This document shows, in pieces, positions 9,394 to 36,044 of a stretch of DNA of 37,368 nucleotides; positions within the stretch are counted from its first letter, which is position 1, and every line of letters starts with the position of its first letter. Source of the stretch: Deltaproteobacteria bacterium (GTDB lineage: Bacteria > UBA10199 > JADFYH01); NCBI GenBank assembly GCA_015233135.1, contig JADFYH010000029.1:1-37368 (forward strand), in the 5' to 3' direction. A model generated the notes under the pieces. The model worked only from the letters and a program-made list of their open reading frames with translations. It had not been told where the DNA came from and ran no database searches. The translations under genes were made by a program, and so were the position numbers.

Positions 9394-9610
9394 AACTTGA
9401 GTTCCGCAGATTTTTAGATGTAAACTTTGCTATTTCCAATAAATACGGATTTAACAAGCATTTCCCCTCTCCCTTGAGGGGAGAGGGTTAGGGTGAGGGT
9501 GATTTTGATGCAACTTACATCCACTATCACCCTCCCTCTAGCTCCCTCCCCTCAAGGGAGGGAGGACTTTTGAGACAAATCATTCTTAAAATCTGCGGAA
9601 CTCAAGGTTA
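9391..9610. mobile_element. MITE-like element, about 220 bp, with roughly 30-bp terminal inverted repeats
   Basis: The left end 9391-9420 and the right end 9581-9610 are inverted copies; the conserved core is TTGAGTTCCGCAGATTTT and its complement, with a few mismatches outside it. A TTAA lies at each outer edge and could be a target duplication or part of the ends. Inside are two palindromic GC-rich elements (about 9463-9502 and 9524-9565). No open frame fits a transposase, so it would be non-autonomous. It sits immediately downstream of the -10 box of repeat copy 1 and upstream of the toxin-antitoxin pair, probably separating them. Confidence 0.6.
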
Positions 9611-12471: not shown

Positions 12472-15400
12472 TCATCCCACTCCATAATAACTCGCCTGCG
12501 GATGATGAAATACAATCGCCGAAACCGAGGCTTCTGGTTCCATCATAAATCCATCCGTCAGTTCTACGCCGATATCTTCGGGCTTCAACAAATCGAAAAT
12601 AATTTTCTGGTCTTCCAAATTAGGACAGGCGGGATAGCCAGGAGAGTAGCGCTTTCCGTGGTACTTCGCTTGAAATCGATCCATCATGGTCATTTCAGGA
12701 CTGTCAGAAAAACCCCACATGTTGCGAATTTTAGAATGCAAATATTCTGCATAAGCTTCTGCGGTTTCCAGGGCTAGGGACTGTAAGACGTGAGATTTGA
12801 GGTATTCGCCTTTGTTCTTTAGATCTTCGGCTATTTTTCGAATGCCTGTCCCGGTGGTGACGATGAATAAACAAATATTGTCAAATTTGGCACCCTCACC
12901 CTGACCCTCTCCCCTCAAGGGAGAGGGAACTTCTGATCCCCTCGCCCCTTGAGGGAGAGGGTTAGGGTGAGGGGTAATATAGTCTGCCAAGCACAAACCG
13001 TTGGCCTGCTTTTGTCTAGGGAATTTGAATTTCGATAATTTTTTTCCATTCGCATCCATTAGAAAAATTTCATTTCCATTCGAACTGGCCTTGAAAAACC
13101 GGTAAATGGCTTGGGGTTTGAGCAAGCCATTTCTACATTCGTTTTTCAGTGATTCGACGATGTCATAAATCTCTAACGCTTTTTCAAGATCCCCCCTTAC
13201 TCCCCCCTTATTAAGGGGGGTTGGGGGGGATTTTACGATCTGTTTAATGATTCCTCCTTTAATTCCCAAGTGACGTCCATAAAGCATCAGTGGATTAATG
13301 AAGGGGAAAATATGATCGACGGGTGTATTGCGAATCAGATGCCGCTCAAAGTCTGGGACTGCTGGTATTTCACGGAGTATTTCTATTTGCGGGGCCCTCT
13401 CATTACTTTCTTCAATTGGCTGGACGGAACTATTTATTTCAACTTTTTTCTCCGCTTGACGCTTTTTTAATTCTTCTTTCAATTTCTCGAATTCAACTTT
13501 GTCCACCACACGCTTAGCCAATTCCAGGCCATTCATGGCGTCTGCGGCGTAAGCGACCAATCCACGGTACGCGGGAGTGATTTTAAAGTCGCTGAAATTA
13601 CGGGAAAGCGCGGCCCCCCCTACAAGCATCGGGAGATCAATTCCAGCCTTGGTGAAATCTTCTGCAGTAATCACCATTTGCTGGGCGGATTTGACGAGTA
13701 GACCCGACAGCCCAATCATGTCGGGCTGATGCTCGCGCACTGCGGCAATCAGCTGTTCTGGTGGAATTTTAATTCCCAGGTTGATGACCTTGAATCCGTT
13801 GTTCGACAAGATAATATCCACTAAATTTTTCCCGATGTCATGCACGTCGCCTTTGACCGTCGCGAGCAGAACTTTTCCTCGCACCGAAGTATCGGCTTTA
13901 TCCATATGCGGCTCTAGATGAGCCACAGCGGCTTTCATGGCCTCAGCACTTTGTAAAACTTCGGCGACAATGAGTTCATTTTTATTAAAGAGCCGGCCAA
14001 CTTCATCCATGCCCTTCATCAAGGGACCATTGATAATTTCCAAGGGTTTGGAGTTTTGCAGTGCCTTGTCCAAATCTTCTTTGAGGCCATCTTTAGAACC
14101 TTCTAAAATGTATCGAGCAAGGCGTTCATTTAAAGGGAAGGTCTTTAAATCTTTTTTCACTTGAGGTGCTTTTACGCGAAAGTAAGCAGCGAAAGCGGCG
14201 ATGGGGTCAGATATTTCACCCTCACCCTCACCCTCACCCTGGCCCTCTCCCCTCGAGGGAGAGGGGCCTTCCGATCCCCTCGCCCCTTGGGGGAGAGGGT
14301 TAGGGTGAGGGGTATGAAATAGTAAATCCTCCGCTAATTTTTTCTCTTCCTCCAGAAGAGTGGCGTAACGTTCCAGTTTCTCTGCATTCACAATGGCCAG
14401 ATCCAAACCCGCTTGCACGCAATGATAGAGATAAACTGAATTTAAGACTTCACGTCCTGCCGGAGGTAAACCGAATGAAACATTGGAAATTCCTAAAATG
14501 GTTTTGGTCAGAGGGAATTCTTTTTTGACTAAACGGATCCCTTCAATCGTTTCAATGGCAGATCCCACATAATTTTGATCTCCGGTGCCCACCGGAAAGA
14601 CCAGACAATCCCAGTAAATGTCTTCCGGTAAAACGCCATATTTTTCGGTGAGGAGTTTATAGCTGCGCCTGGCAATTTCCATCTTACGTTTGCGCGTGAC
14701 CCCCATGCCTTGCGTTTTATCTTCATCAATCAGACCTACCACCAACGCGGCACCATATTTTTTCGCGAGAGGTACTACCTTTTCAAAGCGCTCTTCTCCA
14801 TCTTCTAAATTGATGGAATTTAAAATGGCTTTTCCTTGCGAGTAAGGCAGGGCCAGTTCGAAAACTTTTGCATCCGTCGAATCGAACATCAGGGGTGCTT
14901 TTACTTTTTTGATCACCTGTTCGAGAAATTGCTTCATGTCCGCTGCTTCATCCCGGTCGGGATCAGCCATACAGATGTCAATAATCTGAGCCCCATTTTT
15001 TACCTGGGCACGGGCGATCTCGGCGCCTTCTTCATATTGTCCTGCAGCAATCATCTGTTTAAATTTACGGGAACCGATCACGTTGCTACGTTCGCCGACG
15101 ATGACAGGACGCATCTCGTCTGTAATTTCCAGATACTCAATTCCCGAGAGAAAAGATTTGTGATGCTGAACGGGAATACGAGGCTTTTTCCCCTGTACGA
15201 GTTTAGCCAGTGCCGCGATGTGAGGGTCCGTTGTGCCGCAACAACCGCCGACCAGATTAATCCAGCCTGCGTCAATAAATCGATCGAGCACACGACAAAT
15301 CATCTCGGGTGTTTCCAGATATTTTCCGTCTTCGTCCGGAAGTCCCGCATTGGGCACACACGCCACGCGAGTCTTGGTGAGCGCGGCTAAGGTACGAATA

Positions 15401-16221
15401 TGATCGGTCATGAATTCAGGGCCGGTCGCACAGTTGAGTCCAATATATAAAAGATCCACATGGGCGAGGGACGCCGCCAGTGCGTCAATGGTTTGCCCAG
15501 CCAGCAAGGTCCCCATCGGTTCAATCGTCACCGAAACCGCAATGGGCAAAGGTTCTTTCACTTCAGCTAAGAATTTTTGAATGCCTAAAATGCCTGCCTT
15601 GATATTGCGCGTGTCTTGGCAGGTTTCGAGCAGATAATAATCCACGCCGCCTTCATAAAGGGCTTTGGCCTGCTGATAAAAATTTTCGACCAGTTCTTCA
15701 AAAGTGACGCCACCCGTGACGGACAAGGCTTTGGTGGTAGGTCCCATAGAGCCTGCGACAAAGCGAGGCTTCACCCGCCCCCTAACCCCCTCCCGTCGAG
15801 GGAGGGGGGATTTTTCGTCCCCTCCCCCCTGGAGGGGTGAGGAAAAGCCGCAGGGTTTTCGGGAGAGGGGGATCTCTGAATATTTATCTGCCGCAGCTCT
15901 CGCCAATTGCGCCGCCTTGAAATTAATCTCATAAGCCTTTTGAGAGAGATTGTATTCCGCTAAAACAAGCGGAGTAGCACCAAAAGTATTGGTCTCAATA
16001 ATATCCGCACCGGCCTTGAGATAGGTTTCATGGATGGAGCTAATGACCTCCGGTCTCGTGAGTACTAAATTTTCGTTACAGCCTTCGAGTTCCAGTCCTC
16101 CAAAATCCTCTGCACTCAGATTTTTGGATTGCAACATGGTGCCCATGGCACCGTCCAGCACAAGGATGCGGGTTTGCAAACTGCTTAAAAGTTGTTTTAC
16201 TCTTTCAGATCGGCTTTTCAA
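12472..16221 (-). CDS. metH: Cobalamin-dependent methionine synthase with four translated palindromic inserts
   Basis: Transfers a methyl group from 5-methyltetrahydrofolate via cobalamin to homocysteine. Domains in order: homocysteine-binding barrel (about 1-345) with zinc-ligand cysteines Cys264 (GLNCATG) and Cys327/Cys328 (GGCCGT); pterin-binding barrel (about 370-635); B12 cap (about 672-775); B12-binding Rossmann domain (about 780-910) with the cobalt ligand His794 in GDVHDIG; and AdoMet reactivation domain (about 950-1249) ending in a typical GYPACP...HHPQASYYGVG tail. It is 1249 residues, near the usual size, despite inserts at about 121-151, 637-668, 998-1013 and 1083-1111. All lie in loops or linkers and come from GC-rich palindromes. 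The start is TTG at 16221 with AGGAG seven bases upstream. It begins 14 bases after the DUF5615 gene and may share its transcript. Confidence 0.97.
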   Translation of the reverse strand: MKSRSERVKQLLSSLQTRILVLDGAMGTMLQSKNLSAEDFGGLELEGCNENLVLTRPEVISSIHETYLKAGADIIETNTFGATPLVLAEYNLSQKAYEINFKAAQLARAAADKYSEIPLSRKPCGFSSPLQGGGDEKSPLPRREGVRGRVKPRFVAGSMGPTTKALSVTGGVTFEELVENFYQQAKALYEGGVDYYLLETCQDTRNIKAGILGIQKFLAEVKEPLPIAVSVTIEPMGTLLAGQTIDALAASLAHVDLLYIGLNCATGPEFMTDHIRTLAALTKTRVACVPNAGLPDEDGKYLETPEMICRVLDRFIDAGWINLVGGCCGTTDPHIAALAKLVQGKKPRIPVQHHKSFLSGIEYLEITDEMRPVIVGERSNVIGSRKFKQMIAAGQYEEGAEIARAQVKNGAQIIDICMADPDRDEAADMKQFLEQVIKKVKAPLMFDSTDAKVFELALPYSQGKAILNSINLEDGEERFEKVVPLAKKYGAALVVGLIDEDKTQGMGVTRKRKMEIARRSYKLLTEKYGVLPEDIYWDCLVFPVGTGDQNYVGSAIETIEGIRLVKKEFPLTKTILGISNVSFGLPPAGREVLNSVYLYHCVQAGLDLAIVNAEKLERYATLLEEEKKLAEDLLFHTPHPNPLPQGARGSEGPSPSRGEGQGEGEGEGEISDPIAAFAAYFRVKAPQVKKDLKTFPLNERLARYILEGSKDGLKEDLDKALQNSKPLEIINGPLMKGMDEVGRLFNKNELIVAEVLQSAEAMKAAVAHLEPHMDKADTSVRGKVLLATVKGDVHDIGKNLVDIILSNNGFKVINLGIKIPPEQLIAAVREHQPDMIGLSGLLVKSAQQMVITAEDFTKAGIDLPMLVGGAALSRNFSDFKITPAYRGLVAYAADAMNGLELAKRVVDKVEFEKLKEELKKRQAEKKVEINSSVQPIEESNERAPQIEILREIPAVPDFERHLIRNTPVDHIFPFINPLMLYGRHLGIKGGIIKQIVKSPPTPLNKGGVRGDLEKALEIYDIVESLKNECRNGLLKPQAIYRFFKASSNGNEIFLMDANGKKLSKFKFPRQKQANGLCLADYITPHPNPLPQGARGSEVPSPLRGEGQGEGAKFDNICLFIVTTGTGIRKIAEDLKNKGEYLKSHVLQSLALETAEAYAEYLHSKIRNMWGFSDSPEMTMMDRFQAKYHGKRYSPGYPACPNLEDQKIIFDLLKPEDIGVELTDGFMMEPEASVSAIVFHHPQASYYGVG
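12889..12977. repeat. Palindromic element translated within metH (insert 4)
   Basis: A pair of CCCTCTCCC/GGGAGAGGG hairpins, read in frame as TPHPNPLPQGARGSEVPSPL and RGEGQGEGA (residues about 1083-1111). It sits in the AdoMet domain between the strand CLADYI and the strand ICLFIV. That is a loop position where other MetH proteins carry a short linker. Confidence 0.85.
13183..13233. repeat. Palindromic element translated within metH (insert 3)
   Basis: A shorter element, CCCCCCTTACTCCCCCCTTA with AAGGGGGGTTGGGGGGGATT, read as SPPTPLNKGGVRGDLEK (residues about 998-1013). It sits early in the AdoMet domain, just after KGGIIKQIVK and before a helix. It is a different subtype from inserts 2 and 4. 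Confidence 0.8.
14215..14313. repeat. Palindromic element translated within metH (insert 2), with CACCCT tandem tail
   Basis: Two CCCTCTCCC-type hairpins plus a CACCCT-type tandem run (14217-14240). It is read as HPNPLPQGARGSEGPSPSRG followed by an EGQGEGEGEGE run (residues about 637-668). It lies in the linker between the pterin-binding barrel and the B12 cap. Confidence 0.85.
15775..15873. repeat. Palindromic element translated within metH (insert 1)
   Basis: CCCCTAACCCCCTCCCGTCG/AGGGAGGGGG-type hairpins, read as FSSPLQGGGDEKSPLPRREG and VRGRV (residues about 121-151). It lies in the homocysteine-binding barrel between a surface helix (AAQLARAAADKY) and the strand PRFVAGSMGP. Confidence 0.85.
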
Positions 16222-19987: not shown

Positions 19988-20440
19988 ATGTCTAATAAAA
20001 AAACCGTGAGCAAAGTTTTTGGGATTTTTTTGCTGGGCGTTTTAGTGTCGATGTTTGTTCTTTTGGAAGGGGGCCATTTAATTCAGTTGCTCCAACCGCT
20101 TACCCTCGCATTCATCCTGGGAATCACCATTTGCGGATCCATTTTCAGTGTGGGCGCTCAAACAACTGTGGCAGGGGTGCTTAATTCTCTCGTGGGCATT
20201 CAAATTGTACCTATTTCGAACAAGGAACTGGAGCTTTATGCCCAGAGAATAAAGGGGATCATTGTCTCCTCAACTATTTTAGTGGCGGTTCTCGGGTTTA
20301 TACAAATCTTGCAACACTTGGACAACATGGAAGAAGTGGGTCACGGTGCCGCTGTGTGTTTAATCAGTATTGTCTACGGGACGATTTTAGCCCTCATACT
20401 TCCCGCTACCGTATATTCGAACCCGAGTAATCCCCAGTAA
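19988..20440 (+). CDS. Small integral membrane protein, MotA N-terminal-like
   Basis: 150 residues from the ATG at 19988, preceded by GGGAGGGG. Four hydrophobic segments are visible: about 7-28, 34-52, 82-103 and 118-140. The stretch after the first helix (LLEGGHLIQLLQPLTLAFIL) resembles the first part of MotA/TolQ-type proton channels, where GG-x-L-x-x-L-x-QP precedes the second helix. The cytoplasmic domain and later helices of MotA are not present. Either a shortened relative or a look-alike; no partner gene of the MotB or ExbD type is nearby. Confidence 0.65.
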   Translation: MSNKKTVSKVFGIFLLGVLVSMFVLLEGGHLIQLLQPLTLAFILGITICGSIFSVGAQTTVAGVLNSLVGIQIVPISNKELELYAQRIKGIIVSSTILVAVLGFIQILQHLDNMEEVGHGAAVCLISIVYGTILALILPATVYSNPSNPQ

Positions 20441-33600: not shown

Positions 33601-36044
33601 ATGGCTATCCACAGCTCCAACAATTCGACCACCCAAGGCTGGCAGTCGGGTGACAGGTCCTATCATTTCACCTTGCCCGAATTTCCCGAAGCCCAGTGTC
33701 TCCCGGGCGTTTGGAGGCATTGCTGCGAGAGCATCCCGAACAGGCTTATCAGCAGGCCCTGCAAATTGTTCAGTCTGAATCTTGTTCACTGCAAAGGGTT
33801 TCCAACTTTCTTTTACATCCTTTTACAAATTTAACCGAATCCGCATCGGAGCGTCTGGCTTTTGTGAGCCAGGTGCTTCAAAGTTTGAGAGCCAATCATC
33901 AGGAGCTTTTGGCGAATCAGCTGCAAAGCCAGCTGGAATCTGCCCAAGGCTTTGAGGAACTTTTGTCTACGGTGGGGCAAGGCACTTTTATTTTTGCCCG
34001 CAATCATCAGGAGAGAATCGGTTTTGTCATTGGCTTGGGCTCTCATGTGGCGGGGAGTCTGGCTTATTATCTTTCCACTCGAGTGGGTCTGGGTGGGGCC
34101 GCTTCAGGACTTGCCAGCGGAATCGTCAACGCCTTGTTTCAGAGTGGAATGAATGTTTTGGTTCAGGAGTATCTGTTTGATCAGCATCAAGGCCGACGAG
34201 AAAGGGCGGCCGAGCTGGGGCAATCGGTGATGGATGCCTTGCTCTGCAGTGCGGCGGCGATGGCCTTTGAGCATGGGGAGCAAAATGGATTTGGACAAGG
34301 CAGTCTTCTTTGGTCGGCCTTGAAGTTTAGCGTCGATGTGGGCGTGGAATTTTGCAGCGGCAAGCTGGGTCTCGTCAAATATGTGGCGGGAGTAGAACGC
34401 GAGGCCTGGGGTCATGTGGGATGGGGGATGCTGGCCAATGCCGCTGGAGAAGGCCTTGGAGATGCGGGTAATCATTATATCACTTCACATGTTACTCATC
34501 GTATTGATGCAGCGACGCAGCGCTATCAGGAGAGGGCGGCTCTATTGGAATCGGAGCGGGCTGAGTATCCCCTGAATATTCAGACAGGACTCCGAGCCGG
34601 AGGAGGCTCAGGCACAGGTAAAATCACCCCAAACAATCCGCCCGTTCACCCGCCTACAAGGTTACCCAGACAAAAGCTCCAACTCTTCGTTGCCGCCATG
34701 ATCACCGCCACCCGTGCCGATGCCATTCCGGGCAGGGAAGTTCATCTTCAAAATCGAATGGAACATATTTTAAGCCAGGAAGGATTTACGGGCCTGCTTT
34801 GCGATTTGGAAAGTCGCCAACTGCCCTTGGAGAGCATTGATCTTCTCAAAAAGATTTTTCAAACGGACGATGCCAATCGTGGCGCGGTAGAGGCCATCTG
34901 TAATGGCTTTGATGCAGACTCAAAAAAAGTAACCGTCAAGGCACAAGACGGAGAGATGAAGATTGAAGACGAAGGGCGGGGGATGAGCTTGTATGAGATG
35001 TGTACCTCGTTGCTGATTCCCGGTTTTAGCAAGAATAAACTCAACACCTTTATTGGCCGCTTTGGGGTAGGATTTTACACCTTGCTGCAATATCTCAGAA
35101 CAGAAGAGGATCACGTTCGGGTGACGAGTACACAAGATGGGAAGACCCACGAGCTTTTACTGACCTTGAAAGAGGGCGAGTATCATGTTTCGCTTCAAAA
35201 GCTGAAGCCAAAAAAGAAAAACGGAACCCAGATCTGTGTCAAATCCAATGCAGTACAAGAACAGGCGATTCAAACGGAGATCAGGCAGTATTTACGCTAT
35301 TTTCGTAAGAGTTTGGATCTGATTTATAATAGGGAGAAGATTAATAATTGCGTCATGGAATTAGTGTTTGGCCCCCTCTCCCCAACCCTCCCCCTCCAGG
35401 GGGGAGGGAGCTCGCAATCCCCTCTCCCCTTGGGGGAGAGGGTGAGGGTGAGGGGACAAACATACACCGTCTTCCAAAATCCCCAAGGAACCCCTGGCAA
35501 AGTGGTGATTATGGCGGGCGATGTCGTGGTAGAAGAGTTCACTTCCCCTGTCATCCCGGCGCAGATCGGGATCTCCACGCCTGAACTCGGTACTGAAACC
35601 ATCCTCCAACTCCCCCTCAGCACCAAGATGGATCAACCCCGCCGCGGAGTAGGCGCCAGTCCTGAGCTCTACGCCTTCATCAAAAATTTCACCCAAAGCC
35701 CCCATTGCAATATCCAATTACTGAATGCCCTGGTCCCTTTGGCAATAGAGATGGATACCCGCTCGCCTCAACTTTCTTATCTTGAACTTTTACGCACCAG
35801 AATGCAGGCGCTCTTTTTGGAAAATTCAAAACTCAAATTCTACTCTCGCTCCAGCACCTATAATGAATCCGACCTTATCCTCTTTGCCTCAGATTCTTCG
35901 TCTCTCCCTCGAGGGGAGAGACCGACTGAAGGGCGAGAGAGGGTGATCTCGGATGACACTCTGACCCACTTCCTCCACCCCGCCCTCTGGGTAGAACTCT
36001 ACGCCAACCGTCTCCGCAAACCCAAAGGCGTAGTATACGCGTGA
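33601..36044 (+). CDS. Large protein with a GHKL (Hsp90/MutL-type) ATPase core; 5' frameshift suspected
   Basis: The long frame runs from a GTG at 33696 (782 aa; numbering from there). Residues 1-300 contain Gly/Ala-rich hydrophobic stretches (about 107-160 and 180-192) that may be membrane segments. A Gly/Pro linker follows. The ATPase core at about 390-540 has all Bergerat-fold motifs: N-box AVEAICNGFDAD (Glu399, Asn403, Asp406), G1 IEDEGRGM (Asp425, Gly427, Gly429) and G2 IGRFGVGFYT (454-461), close to Hsp90. The rest is beta-rich, possibly an S5-like and substrate domain, with a palindromic element translated at about 559-587. An ATG at 33601 in another frame encodes MAIHSSNNSTTQGWQSGDRS and more plausible sequence up to about 33695, which would join the long frame by a one-base shift. 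The next gene overlaps by GTGA. Confidence 0.75.
35370..35456. repeat. Palindromic element translated within the GHKL ATPase gene
   Basis: CCCCAACCCTCCCCCTCCAG/GGGGGGAGGGAGC plus CCCCTCTCCCCTTGGGGGAG form two hairpins. They are read as PLSPTLPLQGGGSSQSPLPL and GERVRVRG between two beta-strands (VMELVFG and YTVFQN). Confidence 0.85.
35899..35947. repeat. Second, smaller palindromic element within the GHKL ATPase gene
   Basis: TCTCTCCCTCGAGGGGAGAG and the following GAAGGGCGAGAGAGGGTGA are a single hairpin unit of the family. It is translated as SLPRGERPTEGRERV (residues about 736-750). Confidence 0.7.

Follow-up and report, generated by a model that had tools for sequence, protein, structure and literature searches.

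In-frame palindromic elements within metH

The stretch analysed here, 37,368 nucleotides of a Deltaproteobacteria bacterium (contig JADFYH010000029.1 of assembly GCA_015233135.1) and hereafter called the window, lies on contig C29 of a 2.6-Mb draft genome in 64 contigs with an estimated completeness of 98%. It carries a metH gene for cobalamin-dependent methionine synthase (MetH), in which four palindromic DNA elements are read in frame (Table 1). We found that the gene is a single unbroken open reading frame (ORF), with AGGAG upstream of its start codon. The protein had matches to each of the five Pfam domains of MetH (S-methyl_trans, Pterin_bind, B12-binding_2, B12-binding and Met_synt_B12), that is, the homocysteine, pterin, B12-cap, B12 and S-adenosylmethionine (AdoMet) domains, and the Zn cysteines C264, C327 and C328 and the DVHDIG motif (DxHxxG) were invariant. 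Its closest matches were in records labelled Deltaproteobacteria or Oligoflexia. The Rfam scan of the window returned a tRNA and nothing else.

The inserts were called by aligning MetH against 105 orthologues. Inserts 1, 2 and 3 added a net 32, about 32 and about 21–24 residues, respectively, and were missing from these orthologues. Both flanks of every insert were collinear metH sequence, and the frame was open through all four elements. The fourth element had the same length in several relatives and others were about 10 residues shorter, so that it replaced or lengthened a loop and was not a clean insertion. The first-pass annotation, which was made from the sequence alone, had described four in-frame inserts of one kind in metH; three of them thus stand as net insertions, and their likeness does not hold throughout. 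Inserts 2 and 3 shared one element, each being a head-to-head pair of it; they were 93% identical and had very stable predicted mRNA structures (about −67 to −70 kcal/mol, z −4.5 and −7.4), whereas insert 1 was a diverged dimer and the fourth element belonged to a second family. A single family for all four elements was rejected on these grounds. The 20-nt piece within insert 1 occurred in six copies in the genome, one of them with a mismatch.

Table 1. Coordinates of metH, its elements and further repeat copies in the window
Feature	Position	Strand	Description
metH, cobalamin-dependent methionine synthase	12472..16221	−	1249 aa, TTG start, intact
Insert 1	15772..15867	−	aa 119-150, homocysteine-barrel loop; diverged head-to-head dimer with 20-nt piece GAAAACCCTGCGGCTTTTCC
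Insert 2	14209..14313	−	aa ~637-671, pterin/B12-cap linker; TM_ECO pair plus two extra CCCTCA units
Insert 2, TM_ECO halves	14231-14265; 14277-14311	−; +	exact formula match
Insert 3	12892..12973	−	aa ~1085-1110, codons 12892-12969; AdoMet-domain loop
Insert 3, TM_ECO halves	12893-12927; 12939-12973	−; +	exact formula match
Fourth element	13186..13231	−	aa ~998-1011, codes SPPTPLNKGGVRGD; AdoMet-domain loop between two helices; second family CCCCCCTT-ATT-AAGGGGGG
TM_ECO head-to-head pair	35374..35454	+	in frame in 782-aa ORF 33696-36044, HATPase_c_3 domain
Single TM_ECO copy	9465..9499	+	intergenic, exact formula match

The placement of the elements was examined in AlphaFold models of MetH parts, built from 43-sequence alignments. 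Insert 1 followed helix 93-115 and preceded strand 154-159 of the barrel, with a predicted local distance difference test score (pLDDT) below 50 at residues 121-147; insert 2 formed a disordered linker (pLDDT below 50 at local residues 40-70), insert 3 a low-confidence coil, and the fourth element a loop joining two helices. The N-terminal model matched Thermus MetH 8ssc (TMq 0.88), and sequence matching to 8ssc put insert 1 between residues 109 and 111 and insert 2 between residues 594 and 599. The C-terminal model matched 8sse with a score below that of the N-terminal model, presumably because the domains can move. In these models, inserts 1-3 are low-confidence loops in otherwise intact MetH folds, and the loop and linker positions that the first-pass annotation had assigned were borne out for inserts 1-3. 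As it had also proposed, MetH is probably still an active enzyme, judging from the retained invariant residues and the modelled folds.

Elsewhere in the class, five more metH sequences had AdoMet-domain inserts of a similar sort. At the insert 3 site (residues 1085-1110 of the present MetH), one relative (G037) carried a head-to-head pair that belonged to the same family but was read in a different frame and is therefore probably an independent insertion, and another (G003) carried a putative CGTC-tagged repeat. In G014 a lone unit of the present family stood at the loop of residues 1054-1063 (numbering of the present MetH), where G002 and G012 had other inserts, of which that of G012 was palindromic. 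The two AdoMet loops have thus been hit repeatedly in relatives, which fits structural tolerance. Similar recurrence has been reported in recB and a biotin ligase gene, by Di Nocera et al. (PMC3733652) and in a Rickettsia japonica paper. G037 has two metH-like genes (L006/L078 and G037:C69), one of which has a repeat insertion.

Identity and genomic distribution of the repeat

With 70 copies in register, the unit was defined as a 9-bp stem, CCCTCTCCC/GGGAGAGGG, with a 5-nt loop, followed after 2-3 nt by a second G-rich strand, GGGTGAGGG or GGGAGAGGG. Neither a GTAG nor a CGTC tag was present at the stem base in these copies; its neighbours were mostly TTC/ATC on one flank and spacers of the TTA/TCA type on the opposite one. 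Units stood alone or were paired, either head to head or tail to tail around GTGCAC, and the pairs had inverted ends; miniature inverted-repeat transposable elements are recognised by terminal inverted repeats together with target-site duplications. The unit is that of TM_ECO (also PIT or BoxC), an intrastrand triplex motif of the form 5'-CCCTCNCCC-N3-6-GGGNGAGGG-N3-GGGNGAGGG (Holder et al. 2015, PMC4666352; Hoyne et al. 2000 as cited there). In inserts 2 and 3, each half of the pair fitted this formula exactly; these two inserts are TM_ECO by sequence, and their predicted triplex-forming layout fits the published motif. The genome held 100 exact TM_ECO motifs and none of the reversed control, and inverted pairs in the window lay at 12893-12973, 14231-14311 and 35374-35454. 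Insert 1, a diverged and compound relative, did not fit the formula, and neither did the fourth element.

The palindromes noticed in the first pass were real, as 0.09 matches to the core palindrome would be expected in the window by chance and 35 were present. In the genome the core was present in 124-150 copies, depending on stringency; it occurred in 29 of 46 genomes of the class and in 68 of 385 of a wider set, and the present genome was the richest in both. The second family, CCCCCCTT-N3-AAGGGGGG, had a layout similar to TM_ECO and six exact genome copies, five of them well inside ORFs, including metH, mutL (beside a first-family copy) and a putative carB. A stop-poor repeat adapted to translation was rejected, because units were open in 4.0 of six frames compared to 3.9 for random 35-mers of the window, although the core alone was somewhat stop-poor (5.4 open frames versus 4.5). 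Among phage records there was one match, weak and partial. The same head-to-head pair, at 83% identity over 86 nt, lies exactly between two convergent genes on the Enterobacter hormaechei plasmid NZ_CP058189.1 (64092-64177, L233). At six intergenic loci of the present genome (L146, L155, L157, L162, L165 and L180) the repeat has a longer form, in which a unit and its tail-to-tail partner around AGTGCACTC stand between conserved outer flanks, TTGGCAAG...AAAGCATTTC; this is probably a larger mobile form.

To compare genes with intergenic DNA we used an unbiased sample, which consisted of the elements on contigs 1-7 in listed order and those of the window (47 classified clusters) and not of the whole genome. 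Twelve of the 47 clusters lay inside ORFs, although ORFs cover 89% of the same stretches (binomial P ~7e-24). Assuming uniform insertion, coding copies survived about 4% (0.04) as often as intergenic ones, a figure that can serve as a measure of tolerance for coding insertions. The reading-frame filter by itself would pass an estimated ~22% (a third of insertions in frame, multiplied by the roughly two thirds of frames that are open), suggesting that perhaps one in five frame-compatible insertions was tolerated. The intergenic copies lay between tandem (27), convergent (5) or divergent genes (3 of 35). Five tight same-strand neighbourhoods were checked by Pfam: in four, the domains matched on each side of the element belonged to different families, and in the fifth (L151) one side alone had a match. 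Because the families differ, those elements are intergenic and do not sit in broken genes, and broken gene halves were rejected wherever both sides had Pfam matches.

The pattern was genome-wide rather than specific to metH, since about 20 other genes had in-frame copies. These included UvrA, UvrC, MutL, an HhH-GPD repair protein, QueA, ATP sulfurylase, a DUF2344 radical SAM protein, a NagZ-like family-3 glycosidase, a ComEC-like competence protein, an SNF2 helicase, a CN-hydrolase, a FolC-like Mur ligase, a nucleotidyl transferase, PdxA and LeuRS (two copies); PurD, CysRS and CarB are putative names, taken from a reading of the flanking protein. In several carriers the insertion split one Pfam domain, with both ends still matching and 9-50 extra residues between them. 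The core was read in all three frames, 11, 10 and 4 times. In the unbiased sample, 4 of 11 carrier genes were DNA-repair genes (UvrA, UvrC, MutL and HhH-GPD), a share that comes from four genes only and is set against an assumed background of 2-5%; the further, partly targeted carrier set added no repair gene. The MutL linker (L194, G000:C3:96693-99711) contains in-frame copies of each family, separated by about 100 bp, and a 1006-aa ORF (L197/L231, G000:C21 ~20087-20206) contains three kinds of repeat consecutively and in frame: one of the CCCCCCTT type, one CCCTCTCCC-like unit and the 20-nt piece.

Spread and retention of the inserts

We consider it highly probable that a dispersed, nearly neutral repeat of the triplex type is filtered by reading frame and by the tolerance of the protein. 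Hairpin- or triplex-type repeats, mainly TM_ECO (BoxC/PIT), would insert at many genome sites, and copies inside genes would survive only if the frame is kept and a loop or linker tolerates 20-35 extra residues, which would be rich in Pro, Gly, Arg, Glu and Ser. MetH, being long and multidomain with tolerant loops, could retain several copies. Candidate routes of spread are a transposase acting in trans and events at stalled replication forks, either template switching or repair; triplex motifs have been reported to be unstable at such forks. In E. coli, variability was found to be higher around the motif, and no link to mobile elements was seen (PMC4666352).

Several points weigh against this account. 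No close relative with an empty insertion site was found at the nucleotide level, and the genome is probably a metagenome assembly, in 64 contigs. Expression of the inserts, activity of the enzyme and near-neutrality of the peptides are what we infer from sequence and models. The sole Y1_Tnp-like gene of the genome (L115/L177, G000:C11:24113-24361) was a weak match without flanking elements, the surrounding 8.5 kb containing none. Single copies, pairs and compounds coexist, so that more than one process may be involved.

The independent hits on the same metH loops in relatives, and units that are often inverted pairs like repetitive extragenic palindromic (REP) sequences, could also come from a dedicated transposase resembling the REP-associated tyrosine transposases (RAYT), with a sequence preference that makes the metH loops target hotspots and not tolerant sites. 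Y1_Tnp genes were indeed present in 38 of 46 class genomes, but their number did not follow copy number (10 genes with one core in G023, one gene with 150 cores in the present genome), the single match in this richest genome is the weak one described above, and the presence of different repeat families at the same loops fits tolerance better. We regard such placement as unlikely. A RAYT-driven REP was rejected, as the one Y1_Tnp-like gene was not flanked by the elements.

A role for the inserts was also considered, in which peptides or mRNA hairpins would be retained because they tune folding, translation or activity of the carrier enzymes, or because they mildly impair repair genes and so raise the mutation rate. 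This would agree with the very stable mRNA structures of inserts 2 and 3 and with the four repair genes among the 11 sampled carriers, an association claimed earlier in PMC3733652. However, the carriers are functionally mixed, the further set lacks repair genes, the peptides differ and use all three frames, and the small number of repair genes and the assumed background limit what their share can say; retention for function is accordingly quite unlikely. To the same low degree we credit the stronger proposal that triplex-type repeats actively drive protein insertion in this lineage, entering the same tolerant loops in core enzymes again and again, with preferential retention in genes for DNA repair, where the added loops or mRNA hairpins would alter function or mutation rate. 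Misassembly is common at dispersed repeats of 85-100 bp in a draft of 64 contigs, and the repeats might have been joined into metH by metagenome misassembly. This is very improbable, given that the flanks are collinear and the frame is intact through four elements, that about 20 other genes behave alike and that relatives assembled elsewhere also have repeats in metH.

The insert-bearing enzymes form a natural set for tests of loop tolerance. For annotation there is a warning, in that PHPNPLPQGxRG-like peptides represent a DNA repeat and not a protein motif.

Relation to known palindromic elements

The first-pass annotation had drawn a parallel to Rickettsia palindromic elements (RPE), with a different sequence. 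The parallel holds in that the elements here are in frame, in loops and absent in relatives; the sequence, however, is not new, being that of TM_ECO/PIT (PMC4666352). With RPE and Wolbachia palindromic elements (WPE) the present repeats share dispersed palindromes in frame in genes for apparently functional proteins, which we observed in metH and the other carriers. A WPE and an RPE have been reported to occupy one region of a single gene (PMC3767692), which resembles the recurrence at the metH loops. RPE differ in that their sequence is unrelated, here without a CGTC tag, and that the present host is not a member of the Rickettsiales; they were set apart without a direct RPE sequence comparison. 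Elements of the REP type inside proteins were moreover already known outside Rickettsia, from intragenic REPs that carry GTAG or CGTC tags (Di Nocera et al. 2013, PMC3733652). These likewise give inserts of 20-30 residues from REP dimers, have DNA-repair and tRNA synthetase carriers, and occupy few divergent intergenic positions; the present units differ in having no tag at the stem base and in combining a stem with a third, G-rich strand in a triplex layout. No RAYT gene flanked by the repeats, as in the GTAG type, was found, a search that did not extend to transposases of other families.

Among the papers listed in the literature search none was relevant to the insert peptide or CCCTCACCCT, and the core palindrome led to the key papers. 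The CCCTCTCCC-XX(X)-GGGAGAGGG repeats of Enterobacter sp. 638, which lie at the 3' ends of genes and are presumed terminators (PMC2869309), have the same core palindrome and about 100 copies, but are not described inside genes. TM_ECO/PIT agrees with the present repeat in formula, in forming inverted pairs, in having TTA as one of the common second-loop types and in its patchy occurrence between relatives. It has been listed from 262 proteobacterial genomes and is reported to be always intergenic in E. coli MG1655 (PMC4666352). That location is not part of the sequence definition and does not hold here, where about a quarter of the sampled clusters are in frame inside conserved genes of a loosely placed lineage. 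We found no description of TM_ECO inside proteins in the literature covered, which left out most subscription papers. Collectively, in a copy-rich genome of a lineage unrelated to Rickettsia, these triplex-type repeats would represent a third broad class of dispersed palindrome entering proteins, beside RPE and the tagged REPs.

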